A stretch of 64,000 bases of DNA from Nitrospira sp. Its GTDB lineage: Bacteria; Nitrospirota; Nitrospiria; Nitrospirales; Nitrospiraceae. The notes under the pieces are model-generated. The model did not search any database, was not told where the DNA came from, and saw nothing but the letters and a program-made list of their open reading frames with translations. A program made the translations under genes and the position numbers. Location: assembly GCA_035968315.1 (NCBI GenBank), contig JAVYIN010000007.1, positions 466,996 through 530,995 on the forward strand, given 5' to 3'. This document shows positions 24,502-38,365 of this stretch, piece after piece (position 1 is the first letter of the stretch; every line of letters begins with the position of its first letter).

Positions 24502-24864
24502 CTAATGCGTTAGGGTGTACTGGACTGCGTGGCGGACCTCCTGGAGGCCGAATGGTTTTTGGAGCAGCTGGCGGGCGCCGAAGAGCTTGGCGACGTTGAG
24601 GAAGTTTTGCCCTCCCGTGGCGCCGGTCATGGCGATGACTTTGGCGTCGAGGAATTCGCGCGTGAGTTCGAGGGTTACTTCCATGCCGTCCCGTTCGGGC
24701 ATCAAGATGTCGGTGATCACGAGGTCGGTTGGCGCTTGCCGGTAGAGGGTCAGGCACTCCCGTCCGTCGGCGGCTTCGATGACCTGATGGCCGTCCCCTT
24801 CCAGGATGGAGCGGAGAAGCTGCCGAATGGGTTCTTCGTCGTCTACGATGAGGATCGAGGCCAT
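24502..24864 (-). CDS. single-domain response regulator (CheY-like receiver)
   Basis: 120 residues, receiver domain only. Acidic pocket VDDEE near the N-terminus, phospho-acceptor Asp52 in LVITDILMP, conserved Thr in MTGATGG and Lys in LLQKPFG. With no output domain it would act by protein contact, as CheY or Spo0F do. AGGGAG precedes the start. No cognate kinase gene adjoins it; several large kinases lie elsewhere in the window. Confidence 0.93.
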   Translation of the reverse strand: MASILIVDDEEPIRQLLRSILEGDGHQVIEAADGRECLTLYRQAPTDLVITDILMPERDGMEVTLELTREFLDAKVIAMTGATGGQNFLNVAKLFGARQLLQKPFGLQEVRHAVQYTLTH

Positions 24865-29613: not shown

Positions 29614-30207
29614 CTACTCCAGCGGAATCGTGATCGCAATGCCTCCCATGACATCGTTCACTTTGAAGTCCCGCTTGGGACTCAGCGGATGGCTGTTATG
29701 GCAGATGATGCAGGTCGGAGAGACCGCGCGATCGGCGTAGATGGCTTGGAAGAACTGCTTTTTCCCGCTGGCGACCATGCCCATGACGGGCTGGTTCGGT
29801 TGGCGTGCAAGGGTTTCCAGGGCGTTCCGCTCAAAGTCGGTGGCGGGGGCGTTGCGCTGATAGATTGGGGAGAGGCCGATCAGCCGGTACCGGATACCGC
29901 GGCCGCTTTCGGCGACGATCCGTCCCGAATGCTGCAGAAACTGGGCGGGCAGCGGCAGCGCATTGTCCTGTTCCCAATGCTCGCTGGCCTTCACAATGCC
30001 TTTCTCCTGCATGCGCGTCACCACTTGGGTCGTGTAGATCGTCCGATCGGCTTGGACGATCGCATGCACATAGTCGGCGACCTTTTCGGGCGAGATGCCT
30101 TGAGCTGCGGGCGGCTCTTTTGCCGACGGAGAGAAGGGAATCGCCAGCAGGCTTCCGATCATGATCGTGACGGCTGCGGCTCCGAGCGCGGTGCGGAAGC
30201 GGTCCAT
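29614..30207 (-). CDS. Tll0287-like (DUF3365) periplasmic c-heme protein
   Basis: 197 residues. After an N-terminal signal or anchor (about 8-24) comes a Tll0287-like (DUF3365) domain. A CxxCH heme-attachment site is present at Cys166-Cys169-His170 (CIICH), close to the end, followed by the family-typical DFKVNDVMGGIAI. Proteins of this type are thought to be redox or gas sensors, often fused to histidine kinases. Here it is a separate protein whose start overlaps the 3' end of a membrane kinase gene by 49 bases, which makes a sensory partnership likely. A GAGGAGGAG site precedes the ATG. Confidence 0.88.
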   Translation of the reverse strand: MDRFRTALGAAAVTIMIGSLLAIPFSPSAKEPPAAQGISPEKVADYVHAIVQADRTIYTTQVVTRMQEKGIVKASEHWEQDNALPLPAQFLQHSGRIVAESGRGIRYRLIGLSPIYQRNAPATDFERNALETLARQPNQPVMGMVASGKKQFFQAIYADRAVSPTCIICHNSHPLSPKRDFKVNDVMGGIAITIPLE

Positions 30208-32654
30208 GGCTCCTCCTCGGGTGATGGCGGGGGGGGGATCGCCGGAAGGGTCATGATGCAGGTCGTGCCCTGTCCTTCACGACTGTCGATTCGAAGGTCT
30301 CCCCCGAATTTTCTGATGATGCGGCGGGCGACGGTCAGGCCCAACCCCGATCCCTCCCCTTGTTCTTTGGTAGTGAAAAACGGATCGAAAACTTTTGCCA
30401 GATGGTGCGGGGCAATCCCGGGACCGGTGTCGGTAATTTCGGCTATGGCAAACCGGTCGGCGACGGCGGTGCTGATGCGCACCGTGCCGACGCCTTTCAT
30501 GGCCTGCACCGCGTTCATGAGCAAATTCATCACAGCCTGCCGGAGCTGATCCGGGAGCGCCAGGACCATGGTCTTGCCGGAAAAGAGTTTTTCGATCGTG
30601 ATCTGCCGCATGTCGGCGGCGGTATGCATGGCGGCCAGTGCTTGATCGATCGTCTCCTCTATGCACACAGGGATGCGCTGATCCGAGCTTTCCCGCGTGG
30701 TCACTCCGGTGAAGTCGCGGATGATGGCGGCCATGCGCTGTCCCTGCGCGACGATATCGCGGGCATGGGACTGGGCGCGGGAGAGGTCGGTTTCGTCCAG
30801 AATGGCTTCTCCGAGGCCGACGATGCCGAACAGCGGATTGTTCAGTTCGTGCCCGATGCCGGCGGTCAGGACTCCGAGGCTGCCGGACTTCTCCGCCTGA
30901 ATCAGCTGATCCTGCAGCCGGCTTTCGTCGGTGATGTCCCGCAGCACCAATCCAATTCGGGGCTCGATTCCCGGGCGGCCCGGGAGGCGGAACCACTGAT
31001 AGTGATACGTGCGCGGCCCGATCTGCAGTTCCGAGCGGGATCGGGTGTGACCGGCGTCGTGACTCGCGGCCGGAGCGAGCGGGTCGCGCGGGTGCCCGCT
31101 CTGGGGTGGCGAGCCGGCTTCTTCTCCGGCAGCGTCCTGCCGCAGCTGCGAGTGCACGACGGTACCAAGCGGTTGCAGTGTGGCCAGAGAGAACGGCAGG
31201 GTGGCCTCCGGCGACAGGTGAAAGGCCGCGCGCGCGGCGCGATTCATGTATTGGACCGACTCCCGCGTATTGAGCAAGATGATGGGGGTCGGGACGGCGT
31301 CCAGGATTTGATCGGTGGATCGCTGGAGGTACGTGACCTCTTGGGTTTTGAGGGTCACTTGGTCGGTCAGCCCGGCAAAGGCGGCTTCCAACTGGGCGTT
31401 CATGCGGTTGAATTCATCGGCGAGGTCTTGCAGCTCGTCTCCCGTGCGGATGTCGATGGCGGTGCGGAGCTCCCCTCGTCCGATGGCCTGGGCCGCCTGT
31501 TGCAGCGTGCGCACAGGTGTGACAATGCGGCTGGCGGCGACATAGCCGAGCACGGCGAGGAGCGCAATGGCCACGCTGCCGAAGACCGTCATCCACATAA
31601 ACAGATGCTGGATGGGGGCGAAGAGCTCGTCGGAGGATTGCCAGACGAATGTATGCCAGGAGCCGCCGCTGAGGGAGCCGTTGGTGGCCCGGCTGGTTTC
31701 CGGCAGCGGCGCAAAGCCGATAATGGAGGCGGTATGGCCTCCGTGCCCGTCACTGGGGGCTTCGACCCAGCCGGGCTGTAACAGGGTGATGAGCGGAGTC
31801 AGGCTTCTGTCGGAGAGCGCGACCCCGGTGGGGAGGATGGGGCAGCTCATGACGATTCCCCGGCTGTCGATCAACATGACGTGGCCGGTTTTCCCAAACC
31901 GGATCACATGGGTGGAGGGGGAAAAGAACTCTTTGGCGTCGATCACGCGGTGCAGCACGCCGACCACTTCGTAGCGCAGGCTGTCCATGACAGGCACCGA
32001 AATCGTAAAGACGTAGGCGTCCGCCTGCTTGTTGAAATGGACGTCTTCGATGTACAGCTTGCCGACGCCCTTGTTGTAGGCGCCTTGCCACCAGGGCGTC
32101 TGGCTGTGCCGGTAGCTCGGATTGGCCGTCATGGCGGCCACCAGCGTGCCCTGGAGATCGGTGAGAAAGAGCATCTTCGTGGCCGAGCGCACCACCTGGG
32201 GGAGCAGTTGATCGGGGGCGCTGCGCGTGCCGGTGTAGTACTCCTGTAAGAGCGCGGCGAGGGGGCTGCCGTTGATCTGCTTGACGAGGCCGGGGTCGCG
32301 GGCTGCCCATCGGGATTCTTCATCGGTTGGGCCCTGGGCTTGGCGGTTCGCGAGCGCATCCCGCCGACGCTCGAGTTCCTGGACGACCAGAGGGTCGTTC
32401 GCAATGCGCGCGGTGCGCGCCACTTCGTCGGCGACCAGCAGATCGAGCTTTCTGGCCGCCTCGGTGGCGAGCGCTTTGAAGCTTTCTCCGTTGACGTCGC
32501 GAATTTCTTGCGATCCTTGCCAGAAGGCCATGCTCAACCCGACGACGAGCGGGACGACCCCGACGAAGAGCATCGAAAGGATCAGCTTGGCCTTGAGGCC
32601 CCACCGGGTGCCTTGTCGCGTGTAGAGGGACTGTGCCGGCCTGGGTGTCGCCAT
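30159..32654 (-). CDS. membrane sensor histidine kinase (Cache-HAMP-PAS-HisKA-HATPase)
   Basis: 831 residues. Membrane helix 1 at about 22-44, a long periplasmic Cache-type domain to about 350 (GKTGHVMLIDSRGIV), helix 2 at about 352-375, HAMP to about 430, a PAS domain from about 443, the phospho-acceptor His602 in GIGHELNNPL, and an ATPase domain with DTGPGI and GSGLGL boxes. The Pro-rich tail past about 800 overlaps the heme-protein gene. It starts four bases after the upstream kinase stop, so it is translationally coupled. The signal is unknown; the following c-heme protein suggests a redox or gas cue. Confidence 0.92.
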   Translation of the reverse strand: MATPRPAQSLYTRQGTRWGLKAKLILSMLFVGVVPLVVGLSMAFWQGSQEIRDVNGESFKALATEAARKLDLLVADEVARTARIANDPLVVQELERRRDALANRQAQGPTDEESRWAARDPGLVKQINGSPLAALLQEYYTGTRSAPDQLLPQVVRSATKMLFLTDLQGTLVAAMTANPSYRHSQTPWWQGAYNKGVGKLYIEDVHFNKQADAYVFTISVPVMDSLRYEVVGVLHRVIDAKEFFSPSTHVIRFGKTGHVMLIDSRGIVMSCPILPTGVALSDRSLTPLITLLQPGWVEAPSDGHGGHTASIIGFAPLPETSRATNGSLSGGSWHTFVWQSSDELFAPIQHLFMWMTVFGSVAIALLAVLGYVAASRIVTPVRTLQQAAQAIGRGELRTAIDIRTGDELQDLADEFNRMNAQLEAAFAGLTDQVTLKTQEVTYLQRSTDQILDAVPTPIILLNTRESVQYMNRAARAAFHLSPEATLPFSLATLQPLGTVVHSQLRQDAAGEEAGSPPQSGHPRDPLAPAASHDAGHTRSRSELQIGPRTYHYQWFRLPGRPGIEPRIGLVLRDITDESRLQDQLIQAEKSGSLGVLTAGIGHELNNPLFGIVGLGEAILDETDLSRAQSHARDIVAQGQRMAAIIRDFTGVTTRESSDQRIPVCIEETIDQALAAMHTAADMRQITIEKLFSGKTMVLALPDQLRQAVMNLLMNAVQAMKGVGTVRISTAVADRFAIAEITDTGPGIAPHHLAKVFDPFFTTKEQGEGSGLGLTVARRIIRKFGGDLRIDSREGQGTTCIMTLPAIPPPPSPEEEPWTASAPRSEPQPSRS

Positions 32655-32658
32655 GGGG

Positions 32659-33705
32659 TCACGCTGAAGTGGTGCGGGGCAAGGTGATGGTGAAGGTGCT
32701 GCCGCGGCCGATGTCGCTGGTTACCGCGATCGTGCCGTGCATCTGATGGATCACGTGCTTGATATTATACAGCCCTAACCCGGTGCCCTTTCCGGGAGGC
32801 TTGGTCGTAAAAAACGGCTCGAAGATTTCGTGGAACAGCTCGGGCGGAATGCCGCAGCCCGTATCCGACACCTGAATGGACACACCCGTGTCCTCGGCTA
32901 CGGTGCGCAGCGTCAGGGTGCCGCCGTGCTCCATCGCCTGGACGGCGTTCGTGATGAGATTGACGAAGACGTGCAGGAGCTCGTCGGCATTCCCCGGCAC
33001 GGCGGCGTCCGGCGCATAGGCCTTGACCACCGCGATGTCTTGAAAGGCGACGGCGTAGCGGGCGATTTTGAGGGCATCGTCGAGCTTTGTGTTCACGTCT
33101 ACCAGGCTCTGTTGGTGGGCGGCGGACCGCCGGGCGTAGGAGGTGAGATCGCGGCAGATCGCCGTCGTCCGCTTGACGGCTTCGATAATCTCGCGCGCGT
33201 GCTCGTGGACGGTGGAAAGATCCGTTTCGTCCGCCAGATTTTCAGCCAGCCCGAGGATGAGCTGCAGCGGGTTATTGATGTCGTGGGCGATTCCGGCCGC
33301 GAAGGACCCGATTCCCGCGAGTTTTTCAGCGTGGAGGAGTTCGGCCTGCAGCGCGGACTCGTGCTGCACCAGTTCCCAGACGACGCGGGAGGCCGATCCG
33401 CTGAGGATGTCGAGGCCGGGCCGGGCGTCACGGCGCAGGCGTTGATCCATCGCGGGGTCTCCGGTCACATCCAGGATCAGTTGGGTGTGGTGGTTGTGGA
33501 GAAGATCGTCGATGTGTTCGACCACGGGGATGTGCAGATCGCGCGCCCGTTGCAGGCCGGGGGCTTGCGGATTGCGGTCGCTGATGCCGACGATGTCAAT
33601 CGCGGGAATTTGATGCAGCAGGTCCAGCAGGGCGGTCCCGCCCCGCCCCGCCCCGATGATGGCGACTTTGGCGGGAGCGGCGGGCAGTGGGTGTGAGGTG
33701 CTCAT
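32659..33705 (-). CDS. soluble histidine kinase with N-terminal Rossmann (NAD-binding-like) domain
   Basis: 348 residues and no membrane segment. Residues about 10-125 form a dinucleotide-binding-like fold: [17 protein letters not shown] (GxGxxG), [14 protein letters not shown] after the second strand, and LILDVTGDP. It joins a HisKA domain with His141 in [11 protein letters not shown] and an ATPase domain (about 235-345; [15 protein letters not shown]). The Rossmann part is like that of homoserine dehydrogenase/DapB-type proteins, here without a catalytic domain, so NAD(P)H or redox sensing is an attractive inference. It lies between a response regulator and a membrane kinase on the same strand. 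No ribosome site is obvious at 33705. Confidence 0.85.
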
Positions 33706-33800
33706 AGGACGAGTCGAACCCTGGTGTGCCGAGAGGGGAGAGGATGGAGATGCGGTCCTCTCCCCCCGGTCGAGCTTAGTGTGATGGGGCCCCACTGGTT

Positions 33801-34235
33801 TCATAGCGGGGCCAATTCCCTCTGTTCCATGGCGCGTGCGACAGACGCTTTGAGCTTCTCGCCCTCGACCGGTTTCACGAGATAATCGACCACGCCTTGC
33901 CGCAGCAGGGAGGTGGCCATGTCGGTATCGGGGAAACCGGTCAGCACGATCAACGGCACGCGCGGGTAGTTCTGGCGAAAATAGGCGATGGCCTCGATGC
34001 CGTTGACCTTCGGCATGCGGATATCGCAAATCATCACATCCAGCAGCAGACGGTTTTCGCCGCTGTTAATCGTCTCGATGGCTTTTTCTCCGTTTTCCGC
34101 TTCCAAAACTTCATAGCCGGCTTTCTGCAAGGTCATACGGACGACCTTGCGGATATCCGCCTCGTCGTCCACGACGAGGACGCGTCCGTTGCAATTTTCT
34201 TCGCCGACGAAGAACCCCGATTTAAATTCCGTCAT
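33801..34235 (-). CDS. single-domain response regulator heading the kinase operon
   Basis: 144 residues: a receiver domain with DDEAD near residue 24, phospho-acceptor Asp71 in VMICDIRMP, Thr in VLTGFPD and Lys in LVKPVEG. There is a 15-residue N-terminal extension before the domain and no output domain. AGGAGG precedes the ATG at 34235. It is the first gene of a minus-strand set with two histidine kinases and a c-heme protein, so it is the natural phosphate acceptor of one or both kinases. Confidence 0.93.
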   Translation of the reverse strand: MTEFKSGFFVGEENCNGRVLVVDDEADIRKVVRMTLQKAGYEVLEAENGEKAIETINSGENRLLLDVMICDIRMPKVNGIEAIAYFRQNYPRVPLIVLTGFPDTDMATSLLRQGVVDYLVKPVEGEKLKASVARAMEQRELAPL

Positions 34236-34483: not shown

Positions 34484-34561
34484 TCACCACATGCGGCGAA
34501 GGAAGGCGACGCCGACGATCAGCAGCACGGCTGCCCACAGGAGCATCGCGAGATACATCAT
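34484..34561 (-). CDS. 25-residue single-span membrane peptide (small ORF)
   Basis: Read directly from the minus strand: MMYLAMLLWAAVLLIVG followed by a short positively charged end (FLRRMW). That is one membrane helix with Arg-Arg on the cytoplasmic side. A strong ribosome site (AAGGAG) stands three bases before the first ATG and six before the second. The size and layout are those of small subunits such as KdpF or CydX, but the neighbours give no hint of a partner. The remaining sequence around it, 34236-34483 and 34562-34846, shows no convincing gene. Confidence 0.5.
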   Translation of the reverse strand: MMYLAMLLWAAVLLIVGVAFLRRMW

Positions 34562-34846: not shown

Positions 34847-35086
34847 ATGATTACACCAGCAGTGTTGACGGATTACATTCATAAGTGCATGCCGGATGCG
34901 GTTGTGACGGTCACGGATCGGACCGGGACTATGGATCACCTCAAAGTGGTGGTGGTCTCGGATGTGTTTCGTGGGAAGAATTTGCTGGACCGGCACCGGC
35001 TGATCTATGAGGCCTTGGACGTTCCCATGAAAGACGGACGGATCCATGCGTTGGAGTTGACGGCGCGGACCAATGACGAAAAATAG
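34847..35086 (+). CDS. BolA/IbaG-family protein
   Basis: 79 residues, the typical length. The class II KH-like fold is visible, with the conserved KVVVVSDVFRGKNLLDRHRLIYEAL stretch (given here as its core, about 32-56), ending in HALELTARTN. BolA proteins bind 2Fe-2S clusters together with CGFS-type monothiol glutaredoxins and take part in cluster trafficking and iron sensing. The grx gene follows 35 bases later, so the two are one functional unit. GGAGG lies five bases before the ATG. Confidence 0.93.
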   Translation: MITPAVLTDYIHKCMPDAVVTVTDRTGTMDHLKVVVVSDVFRGKNLLDRHRLIYEALDVPMKDGRIHALELTARTNDEK

Positions 35087-35121
35087 TTACAGATAGGCGA
35101 TCGATACAAAGGAGGCCGACG

Positions 35122-35445
35122 ATGGCAGACCCAATTGAAGACGAAATTCAGCAGGAAGTGAAAACCCATAAGATCCTCATCTACGGCAAGGGGACCAAGC
35201 AGATGCCGATGTGCGGGTTTACCCGCGAGACGATGCAGTTTTTCGATAAGTACGGGTACCCCTACGAAGTGATCGACGTGCTGTCCCAGCCCACCAAGCG
35301 GGAAACCCTCACGAAGATCACCAAGTGGCCGACGCTGCCCAAAGTCTTCATCGACGGCACTTTCTACGGCGACACCGACATCCTCGATCCGATGGCGGCA
35401 AAGGGTGAGATCGAGCCGTTGCTGAAGAAGGCGTTCGGGAAATAA
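35122..35445 (+). CDS. grxD: monothiol glutaredoxin (Grx4/GrxD type, CGFT variant)
   Basis: 107 residues. The active site reads MCGFT with Cys31; the usual motif is CGFS. Other hallmarks are KGTKQMPMCGF, WPTLPKVFIDG (cis-Pro loop) and the C-terminal GDTDILD glutathione-binding region. Monothiol Grx dimers hold a bridging 2Fe-2S cluster with glutathione and hand it to targets such as ErpA (present at 61356). It is paired with bolA and followed by a strong terminator. Confidence 0.94.
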   Translation: MADPIEDEIQQEVKTHKILIYGKGTKQMPMCGFTRETMQFFDKYGYPYEVIDVLSQPTKRETLTKITKWPTLPKVFIDGTFYGDTDILDPMAAKGEIEPLLKKAFGK

Positions 35446-35473: not shown

Positions 35474-35515
35474 GCCGGCGGGTGCTCGTGGCGAGCATCC
35501 GCCGGTGTTGTTTCG
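35474..35515 (+). terminator. intrinsic terminator of the bolA-grxD unit
   Basis: CCGGCGGGTGCTCG (35475-35488) pairs with CGAGCATCCGCCGG (35492-35505): 14 base pairs with one G-U and a 3-base loop, then TGTTGTTTC. It starts about 30 bases after the grxD stop. Confidence 0.75.
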
Positions 35516-35694
35516 GGTGGCCGCGGTCACCTTTTGGCTTCGTGGGGGCAGTGTAAGGTGCCCTTGCTTCGTTGCTGGAGAGTTTCTAATTCCCCCTCAA
35601 ATTTTCGCCGGCATCAGCATCCTTGAGTCTAGCAGGCGAATCTCAGCTGCTAGCGAAACAACGATTCCAATCCACAACCAATTTAGACTTACGA

Positions 35695-36063
35695 TTAATA
35701 GTTTTGATTCTCCACTGGCGTTGGCGCAACAAAGTAGGATAGCCCTCCGCCCAAGATTGCCATGTATGCAACCGAAACGCTACTGGCCAGCCATGTGCTA
35801 AGAGGCTGCCCAATAATTACATTGATAACGCCAGTAAACCATGTCCCTAGAAACACCATGCCGAGATACTTAAACCGGTCAACCTTTGTTAAGCAACCGG
35901 CAATACAAAATCCCATAGCGCCAAAGAGAATGATGACTGTTGCCCCAACATATGGATTCTGTTTAATAGCAGTTGGTGCAAAGGGCATGAGAAGCCCTCC
36001 AATAAAGGTAAGGACAAAAATAATGCCAATATCCCTCAGTAGCGCTCGCCAAGGCAGTGTCAC
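35695..36063 (-). CDS. four-helix membrane protein in AT-richer islet
   Basis: 122 residues beginning with GTG, four membrane helices (about 10-28, 40-60, 66-86, 92-112). No motif is recognised. It lies 18 bases behind the zinc-ribbon/ClpP-fold gene and uses noticeably more AT-ending codons than the flanking genes, as do the two genes upstream of it. GGAG lies 12 bases before the GTG, a rather long spacing. Probably a membrane partner of the upstream gene. Confidence 0.6.
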   Translation of the reverse strand: MTLPWRALLRDIGIIFVLTFIGGLLMPFAPTAIKQNPYVGATVIILFGAMGFCIAGCLTKVDRFKYLGMVFLGTWFTGVINVIIGQPLSTWLASSVSVAYMAILGGGLSYFVAPTPVENQNY

Positions 36064-36081
36064 TGCTAGGTTTCTCCAGTT

Positions 36082-37182
36082 CTACCTGCGGTCTACAAAT
36101 TTTGAGCCATCATATGTGTGCGTAACGACTCCTGCATCAATCAGTTCTTCGACGGAAGGGTGCCACATGTCTGTACCCGGAACGCTAAACGCCTTTTCTA
36201 TGAATTTCGGCCTGACCCCACGTTTCCTGAAATAAGCGGTGCCGCCCTCGTTTGCTTGCGAGTTGTTCATATTGAACCAGTCAGGTCCGATCCACTGAAA
36301 CGCATGAAACCCAAGTCTTCCGTCAGAATGGAGAATGCGAGATGATCCTGCCATAAACGCATAGGTGCAGGCACTGTCACATTGTGTTCCTGTGTATGTT
36401 GCCAATTGGCGTTTTTCGATCAACTCTCCAATTTTCTCAGCTTGTTGCAGAAGACCCCCAACAAGTTCCAGCGTCACAATAAAAGCCTTTGGCGTATTCG
36501 CCAATTCGTCTTTTACTTTGTCGGCAATCCCAGGTCCCATGAATCCGCTGACTACAATCTCATCAAAGTCATCTTGAGGATGATGGATGACAGTTACCGT
36601 ATATTTGTAACCACTGTCACGAAAAACCATGCCAGTCCATTCGAAAATAGATAAGGACGACCAAAACACAGATGCTCCAATAAAAATACAACTCGCTTGA
36701 GCGCACCTGGCCCAGAAGGCAGGCCTTTTCATCAGAAGATGATTCTGGGCGGATCGCCAGAGGCCAATAATCTGCCAAGGAGATAATAGAAATGATGAAA
36801 AGTACAAAACGACCAATCGCAGCTGAGCATGAAGAAGTGAGTTTTCGGCAAGAACGGAGTCGATACATTTGACGAAGATAAAATACGCTAGGACGTTTAT
36901 TCCCAAATAATTGACCCAGAAACTCAATCCAAGAGGTAGGTCTCCACGCCAATGCGCGACGACGTAGCTTTTGAGCGCCACCCAATCCTGGGTTTCATAT
37001 TCTATGATTCGTTGAAACAGGGAAGATCTTGGTGCGGTATAGTTTTTTTGTTCTGTGGCTATGGCAGCAGGAGGAACTGAGGGCAGTTTCTGAACTTTGT
37101 CCAATTCATGGCCACATTCACACCATCGATTTTCTGGTGAATTATGGATGCCACATTCTGAACATATGATGGGCAAAGCCAT
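36082..37182 (-). CDS. zinc-ribbon, membrane and ClpP-fold (COG3904-like) fusion protein
   Basis: 366 residues. The N-terminus has a Cys4 zinc ribbon (CSEC...CECG, about 7-22). A Pro-rich linker leads to about four membrane helices (between about 85 and 190), then a domain reminiscent of COG3904 predicted periplasmic proteins with a ClpP/crotonase fold: a Gly-Gly turn in LVGGLLQQAEKIG followed by CDSACTYAF, in which Ser between the two Cys would be the nucleophile, and later GFHAF. AAGAGGA lies before the ATG at 37182. Base composition is AT-richer than its neighbours, suggesting transfer. Protease activity is inferred only. Confidence 0.7.
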   Translation of the reverse strand: MALPIICSECGIHNSPENRWCECGHELDKVQKLPSVPPAAIATEQKNYTAPRSSLFQRIIEYETQDWVALKSYVVAHWRGDLPLGLSFWVNYLGINVLAYFIFVKCIDSVLAENSLLHAQLRLVVLYFSSFLLSPWQIIGLWRSAQNHLLMKRPAFWARCAQASCIFIGASVFWSSLSIFEWTGMVFRDSGYKYTVTVIHHPQDDFDEIVVSGFMGPGIADKVKDELANTPKAFIVTLELVGGLLQQAEKIGELIEKRQLATYTGTQCDSACTYAFMAGSSRILHSDGRLGFHAFQWIGPDWFNMNNSQANEGGTAYFRKRGVRPKFIEKAFSVPGTDMWHPSVEELIDAGVVTHTYDGSKFVDRR

Positions 37183-37309
37183 ATTCGTATCCTCTTCAAG
37201 TACAAATTGAATGCGTTTAGCTGGCGGCAAAGTGGTTCAACTGTGAGCCTCGTAAGCAGAAAATTCGAAGTCTAGCCGCCATTGTTAAACGATTGGTTTG
37301 AGGCGCAGT

Positions 37310-37921
37310 TTAGGCGCTTTGCAATTTATCCTTGACCGCTCTAATGCATCCTCGGACAACGATGTCACGAATTTGAACGAGTGAGATCTCAGCAGTCACG
37401 GCTGGGTCGGTATTTACCAACGACATGCGACCATCATGAAACGCAAAATCCGTATAGTTTCCTTCATGAACCACTTCGCAACGGATGTCGTATAACAGGT
37501 CTACAGCTTTGCTGAATCCAATAGGAGGCAGCAGGTCTGTATTAACCGTGAAGCCATGAGACAGGGTGTCCTTGTCTGACTGCGGAAGAAATTTGTTAAA
37601 GAATTGTTGAACATAATGCCGTGATTTTCCTTCACCGCTGAATCCGTCGTGAATTTTGGCAATGTTTTCTGAGCACATTATCAGAAACAACACCTGCAGC
37701 GGTTCCTTATGCGGCCTAATTTGTGGCAGATCGTCCGCGATGGATATCAACCGTTGAGTCTGATGCATCATTATTTTGGCATCATGATTTGGTGCCAACG
37801 GATGGAGGTTCTCACATGCTTGAACGAAATGCTCTGCTTCCTCTAGCAGTGCAAAATGTGGCAAATAAAAACTTAGCCAGGGTTCCACTGCAGCATCTCC
37901 TTCAATCGCTATTAGCTGCAA
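37310..37921 (-). CDS. HEPN-like protein of unknown function, TTG start
   Basis: 203 residues, mostly helical. Near residue 150, LLYDIRCEVVHEGNY contains an R-x4-H arrangement followed by a small residue, as in HEPN-domain RNases and their relatives. No ATG exists at the 5' end; the first start codon is a TTG at 37921 with a GGATCG ahead of it. The frame is continuous with the upstream zinc-ribbon gene apart from that gene's TAG at 37961-37963. AT-richer codon use groups it with the two genes downstream. It could be an antiviral or toxin-like RNase, but the evidence is one motif. Confidence 0.6.
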   Translation of the reverse strand: MQLIAIEGDAAVEPWLSFYLPHFALLEEAEHFVQACENLHPLAPNHDAKIMMHQTQRLISIADDLPQIRPHKEPLQVLFLIMCSENIAKIHDGFSGEGKSRHYVQQFFNKFLPQSDKDTLSHGFTVNTDLLPPIGFSKAVDLLYDIRCEVVHEGNYTDFAFHDGRMSLVNTDPAVTAEISLVQIRDIVVRGCIRAVKDKLQSA

Positions 37922-37960
37922 CGATCCGATGTTTGGCTGCCCATCACGCTTTCGGGCTCT

Positions 37961-38365
37961 CTACCGTTTCGCTTCCGGTGGCGGCCAGTTCATTTCGGTG
38001 TGGCGGCCGCAGTAGAAGCAGCAGAGGCGGTAGCGGGCTTTGCGGCGGGGATTAGGCATCGAGATGAACGTGATCGGCGTATCGTCGAACGGACAGGTCG
38101 GCTGGTCGTGGAGCAGATGCACTTCGGCCATCATGGTGATCGAGGCGACATCCCAGGACGGTGAGTGTTCTTCCTTGCCGGTAATCTTCTCAACCACGTG
38201 ACAGCGTTCGCAGGTCGCTTCGTAGGTCTTGATCCGGGCGTTGTGCGGCGTGAGATCGACGACATCCATCGCTCCGCCGCATCCTGGCTTGGCGCAGGTC
38301 AAGTGCTCATGCTGTAGGGCCTGCACGAACCGATGGTGCTGTTCGCGTTCTTGATCGGTTTTCAT
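37961..38365 (-). CDS. multi-zinc-ribbon protein of unknown function
   Basis: 134 residues with four Cys-rich spots: CAKPGC, CERC, CPFDD and CCFYC, enough for two zinc ribbons. A helical N-terminus (KTDQEREQHHRFVQALQ) precedes them. GAGGG lies nine bases before the ATG at 38365. It immediately precedes the AT-richer islet, but its own base composition is like the GC-rich side. Function unknown. Confidence 0.65.
   Translation of the reverse strand: MKTDQEREQHHRFVQALQHEHLTCAKPGCGGAMDVVDLTPHNARIKTYEATCERCHVVEKITGKEEHSPSWDVASITMMAEVHLLHDQPTCPFDDTPITFISMPNPRRKARYRLCCFYCGRHTEMNWPPPEAKR

Follow-up and report, generated by a model that had tools for sequence, protein, structure and literature searches.

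A conserved Nitrospira operon groups a Rossmann-domain kinase, a Cache-domain kinase and a c-heme protein with one single-domain receiver, and relatives nest the Rossmann domain inside the receiver

Four adjacent genes on the minus strand, at 29614-34235 of a 64,000-nucleotide stretch of Nitrospira sp. (GCA_035968315.1, contig JAVYIN010000007.1; hereafter the window, in whose numbering coordinates are given), encode a single-domain receiver (REC), a soluble histidine kinase with an N-terminal Rossmann domain (RossHK), a membrane histidine kinase with a periplasmic dCache domain (CacheHK) and a Tll0287-like periplasmic c-heme protein. We consider it somewhat more probable than not that these proteins form one signalling unit, in which RossHK, and CacheHK together with the heme protein, are arranged around a shared REC. 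The genes and the features on which this proposal draws are as follows.

33801-34235, minus strand: REC, single-domain receiver of 144 residues (Pfam Response_reg, 2.2e-28)
34023-34025, minus strand: phospho-acceptor Asp71 of REC
32659-33705, minus strand: RossHK, soluble kinase of 348 residues with N-terminal Rossmann domain, HisKA and HATPase_c (Pfam; ATG at 33705)
33370-33678, minus strand: Rossmann domain of RossHK, residues ~10-112 (AlphaFold model, Foldseek and conservation in 65 relatives)
33283-33285, minus strand: predicted phospho-His141 of RossHK
30159-32654, minus strand: CacheHK, membrane kinase of 831 residues with periplasmic dCache, HAMP, PAS, HisKA and HATPase_c (Pfam)
29614-30207, minus strand: Tll0287-like (PF11845, sCache_heme) periplasmic c-heme protein of 197 residues (Pfam, 2.9e-18)
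29698-29712, minus strand: CIICH heme-attachment motif, residues 166-170 of the heme protein

Reading of the sequence and Pfam bore out the initial annotation in its gene set, domain calls, Asp71 of REC, CIICH motif and coordinates. REC and RossHK are separated by 95 bp and RossHK and CacheHK by 4 bp, while CacheHK and the heme gene overlap by 49 bp. A RossHK start in the longer frame, which is open to 34029, was rejected, as it overlaps REC and conserved homology starts after the ATG at 33705. In REC, Response_reg spans residues 19-132, with no output domain, and the DDE, D71, LTG and KP signatures of a CheY-like single-domain receiver are all present. Both kinases exceed the Pfam cut-offs and qualify as HisKA-type enzymes, a class marked by HisKA with a phospho-His and by HATPase_c with N, G1, F and G2 motifs: RossHK matches HisKA (1e-10, residues 134-194) and HATPase_c (5e-28, residues 239-345) and contains GTGLGL, and CacheHK matches dCache_1 (2e-13), HAMP (1e-11), PAS_4 (8e-5) and HATPase_c (1e-25). 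The two kinase cores align without gaps at 39% identity. When the RossHK core is compared with the 38 HisKA-type matches of the genome, CacheHK ranks first (39%, 5e-47), with a PAS kinase elsewhere in the genome nearly as close (4e-45).

Linkage of the genes in relatives, which had been set beforehand as a refutation test of the grouping, is confirmed. The order REC, RossHK, CacheHK, heme gene is kept in all 20 Nitrospira loci fetched around RossHK of the operon's type (A-type; L032-L051), where the operon sits between opposite-strand grxD and AI-2E, bactofilin and PBP genes. REC, RossHK and CacheHK are likewise present in 61 of 61 further Nitrospira records, and the four-gene order is complete in each of the 54 whose contig is long enough to hold it. 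REC is the most constrained member, being 91-98% identical in the 20 Nitrospira loci, compared with 53-80% for the Rossmann domain, and occurs at E<=1e-35 in 101 of the 146 genomes of the class. The same four genes are also found in a second Nitrospirales family (L133, L135, L136, L139, L140, L143, L250 and L253). Outside Nitrospirales the set is smaller than four genes: in L243 and L258 a Rossmann kinase precedes a REC 52-57% identical to that of the window, L252 (genome G183) has REC and both kinases but no heme gene, and L263 (G129) has REC and CacheHK with no Rossmann match nearby. REC, A-type RossHK and a close CacheHK were not found in G059 and G030, both 99% complete. The initial suggestion that two inputs converge on one receiver thus gains indirect support, because REC is the fixed element that is paired, according to lineage, with RossHK, with both kinases or with CacheHK, and the two kinase cores are alike. 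As the simplest reading, an ancestral REC-RossHK pair would have been joined later by CacheHK and then by the heme protein.

The AlphaFold model of RossHK (mf77ab11c9777, mean pLDDT 88) shows a Rossmann fold at the N-terminus, whose exit helix (residues 103-131) is long and runs continuously into HisKA. Specifically, the nucleotide site comprises GAGRGG (G18, G20 and G23), DVTGDP and Asp43, which ends beta2; with its beta-alpha-beta fold, GxGxxG and acid ending beta2, the domain has the features of a Rossmann domain that binds nicotinamide adenine dinucleotide, NAD(H). Across 65 divergent copies, which share only 25-45% identity and precede quite different outputs, Asp or Glu ends beta2 in all 65, 60 have GxGxxG, and G103 and W110 hardly vary. 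A profile built from these copies finds acetaldehyde dehydrogenase (5e-7) and the Rex redox repressor (2e-4). In line with this, the best Foldseek matches of the Rossmann model are the NAD-binding halves of acetaldehyde dehydrogenase (1nvm, 8e-6) and of Gfo/Idh enzymes, with Rex lower. Because the site is conserved and the best matches are NAD-binding halves of dehydrogenases, NAD(H) is the leading ligand candidate, credible though unproven, and with an acid invariably ending beta2 it is more likely than NADP(H).

The Rossmann-kinase fusion had been called a rare architecture in the initial annotation, which is wrong. At E<=1e-10, the Rossmann module is present in 169 of 295 sampled Nitrospirota genomes (57%), where it lies N-terminal to HisKA, HisKA_3, sigma-54 AAA+ with HTH_8, GAF-GGDEF, GGDEF-EAL and a hybrid kinase-REC-REC-GGDEF; such variety of outputs is as expected of an input domain. 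The genome of the window itself has a second Rossmann kinase (B; G000:C8:114806-115150, and L052:6813-7115 and downstream), which carries HisKA_3 of the NarX type and is followed by a NarL-type regulator. In each of 17 Nitrospira loci this B paralogue adjoins nrdR and glyA, and it is possibly linked to nucleotide metabolism. Beyond Nitrospirota, the spread of the module is known from a single plasmid-collection match, an Acetoanaerobium (Clostridia) protein (L182:4004-4786, plus strand) in which a Rossmann domain of the same type (30% identity, 3e-10) precedes MCP, making it a candidate soluble chemoreceptor. Additionally, a partial match in Enterococcus (2e-4) may be an ordinary dehydrogenase. 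RossHK belongs to a large class of Nitrospirota signalling proteins that apparently has no name.

The point most surprising to specialists lies outside the window. In relatives, a single open frame encodes a REC-like receiver that is interrupted between beta4 and alpha4 by the Rossmann domain. The nested proteins begin with the first two thirds of the receiver (..VPLIALTG), continue with the Rossmann domain and its exit helix (..LLRSEKLAG), and end with the remainder of the receiver (..MIRDGVKDFLVKPL..VEQRELNRL), so that the same exit helix that enters HisKA in the window's RossHK enters receiver alpha4 in the nested proteins. Of 146 genomes sampled from the order Nitrospirales, 16 have such receivers; they span seven genera and two families and include single-contig genomes. 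Examples are the following, each in the numbering of its own locus.

L134, 5671-6465, plus strand: nested receiver of 264 residues
L138, 5641-6465, plus strand: nested receiver
L254, 4938-5810, minus strand: nested receiver
L289, 68-928, plus strand: nested receiver

An assembly artefact was considered and rejected, as 15 distinct sequences from many genomes, among them the single-contig G150 and G238, share the same breakpoints. The nested Rossmann parts group with the A-type Rossmann domains of the operon (support 96/96), which fits one insertion or several. Nearly all nested receivers retain the phospho-Asp, Thr and Lys; L289 has Asn for the phospho-Asp, and two residues after that position are missing from all nested receivers. 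Genus g13 has no close relative of REC apart from the nested form, and CacheHK and the heme protein are present there only as distant paralogues. G368 has a complete four-gene cluster, with the nested gene ~4 kb away from it. The fusion implies a functional tie between Rossmann domain and receiver that is independent of gene order. A literature search found neither a receiver with a Rossmann insertion nor a Rossmann-histidine kinase or NAD sensor kinase; most subscription journals were outside its coverage, and an earlier mention is possible. We propose, tentatively and with less confidence than we place in the signalling unit, that an undescribed NAD(H)-type Rossmann module serves as a general Nitrospirota input and that, nested inside a receiver in some Nitrospirales, it would integrate dinucleotide state and phosphorylation in one switch without a dedicated kinase.

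The heme protein matches the Tll0287-like family PF11845 with 67.1 bits (cut-off 24.1) and probably carries a cleavable signal peptide. The CIICH cysteines are the only ones in the mature protein; similarly, CxxCH is present in 35 of 35 orthologues, which beyond the N-terminal signal region are otherwise free of cysteine. Among solved structures, sequence searches gave no match. The best structural match of the protein model (m723860be14c4) is the heme sensor domain of the chemoreceptor GSU0935 (3b42; E 3.6e-3, prob 0.98), a modest match with a root-mean-square deviation of 14 over 162 columns, and Tll0287 itself (5b82) is not among the fold matches listed. The sCache_heme family, a Cache domain with c-heme, is enriched in Nitrospirota; tight binding of nitric oxide (NO) and lack of an axial Cys are reported for a member linked to a signalling module, and a stand-alone member with an axial Cys is redox-like (PMC12889525, 2026 preprint). 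That signalling-linked members bind NO (PMC12889525) sharpens the "redox or gas" signal first suggested for the protein. In its sequence, the missing axial Cys fits a ligand-accessible heme, as weak evidence. The genome encodes six PF11845 proteins. As a separate observation, another Tll0287-like gene (G000:C5:209103-212935) lies ~2.6 kb from a copper-nitrite-reductase-like gene (191 bits; TIGR02376 cut-off 296).

Around the operon, a monothiol glutaredoxin gene (35122-35445, plus strand) and a bolA-like frame (~34848-35090, plus strand) diverge from it, and nearly every Nitrospira locus keeps the glutaredoxin gene as a neighbour. A minus-strand frame (34484-34561) that lies between REC and the bolA-like frame, with AGGAG upstream, could encode a 25-residue hydrophobic peptide (MMYLAMLLWAAVLLIVGVAFLRRMW). 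The region 35500-38000 has a low GC content (46-53%, 60-65% around it) and unrelated reading frames, and is possibly acquired DNA. The window also contains a second lone receiver (24502-24864, minus strand) near a PBP gene, ~30% identical to REC where compared.

For the operon as a whole, we propose that REC would be the shared phosphate acceptor of both kinases. In the cytoplasmic RossHK, the Rossmann domain would most likely bind NAD(H), and its ligand state could be passed through the continuous helix of residues 103-131 to the HisKA dimerisation helix and on to REC phosphorylation. The dCache domain of CacheHK, probably with the translationally coupled c-heme protein, would report a periplasmic signal to the same REC, namely NO or redox, with NO slightly preferred. 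Because it has no output domain, REC would act by protein contact. We infer the NAD(H) ligand, the NO or redox nature of the periplasmic signal, phosphotransfer from both kinases and contact between the heme protein and CacheHK.

Other readings of the Rossmann domain have to be weighed against NAD(H) sensing. It may be an interaction or dimerisation module that no longer binds nucleotide, which we regard as unlikely. The enzymes most closely related to it have a catalytic half that it lacks, and the window's domain is below every Pfam cut-off (DapB_N, 21.3 against 25.6 bits; GFO_IDH_MocA, 21.7 against 24; NAD_binding_3, 17 against 24), dehydrogenase families included; a few relatives do pass Pfam Rossmann-family cut-offs. 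However, the beta2 acid persists in all 65 copies and GxGxxG in 60 of them despite their low identity, and a pure scaffold would need neither. To a similar degree we doubt that the domain senses another small molecule, be it NADP(H), coenzyme A or another nucleotide: weak matches to CoA_binding and other nucleotide-fold Pfam models, together with the constant proximity of the B paralogue to nrdR, a regulator linked to deoxynucleotides, speak for this, whereas the ranking of NAD-dependent acetaldehyde dehydrogenase and Gfo/Idh enzymes, then Rex, as best matches speaks against it, and the beta2 acid disfavours NADP.

Several points weigh against the proposed unit, and most concern the heme protein. 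Besides the modest fit to 3b42, all other stand-alone PF11845 paralogues in the genome also lack the axial Cys, and for this reason its absence was dropped as proof of NO sensing. Moreover, the protein stands alone at 197 residues and is tied to the membrane module by the operon only, rather than fused to it as in the NO-sensing subgroup, and redox roles are given to stand-alone sCache_heme proteins (PMC12889525). It is thus conceivable, if on balance doubtful, that the c-heme protein works in the periplasm as a redox carrier, happens to be co-transcribed and provides no input to CacheHK, as the RossHK-CacheHK-REC set without a heme gene in G183 would also allow. On the other hand, its gene overlaps that of CacheHK, is very strongly conserved in Nitrospirales and always lies behind CacheHK, and the protein has no axial Cys, unlike the redox type. 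The remaining point concerns REC. In G019, REC is kept at 93% identity beside a Rossmann fragment with a stop (L068:9096-9826), the kinases and the heme gene being gone; REC outlives its neighbouring kinases there and may have other partners. This lone survival, and the several REC paralogues in other Nitrospirota, would agree with kinases that serve different regulators in a cluster that is only a co-inherited neighbourhood. We hold that explanation to be quite improbable, given the repeated re-pairing of REC with either kinase, the loss of the genes as a block, the similar kinase cores and the nested fusion, and we retain the reading of one signalling unit around REC.

If this unit operates as proposed, Nitrospira, the dominant nitrite oxidisers, would feed their internal NAD(H) state and a heme signal from the periplasm into a single switch. 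This would be a route by which reverse electron flow and exposure to NO could be matched to physiology. A widespread module without a Pfam family of its own would account for the input of many Nitrospirota kinases, sigma-54 activators and diguanylate cyclases, and nested receivers would be an unusual case of a ligand-binding domain built into a response regulator switch.

Two-kinase, one-receiver networks are known in two-component signalling, and the operon resembles them in placing several kinases around one single-domain receiver. Distinct from such networks, one kinase here has a Rossmann input, and relatives carry that input inside the receiver. Rex repressors likewise use a Rossmann domain as sensor, consistent with the profile match, yet in Rex it is joined to a winged helix, whereas here it is followed by a histidine kinase, and relatives place it before many other outputs. 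The NAD-binding half of DmpF, an acylating acetaldehyde dehydrogenase, is the best match in both sequence and fold; unlike DmpF, the RossHK domain has no catalytic half and serves as a signalling input. The heme protein resembles the sCache_heme NO and redox proteins in its family match, CxxCH motif and periplasmic location, and shares the absence of an axial Cys with the NO-binding P. azotoformans protein, but in contrast to signalling sCache_heme proteins it is encoded beside a dCache kinase and not fused to it (PMC12889525).

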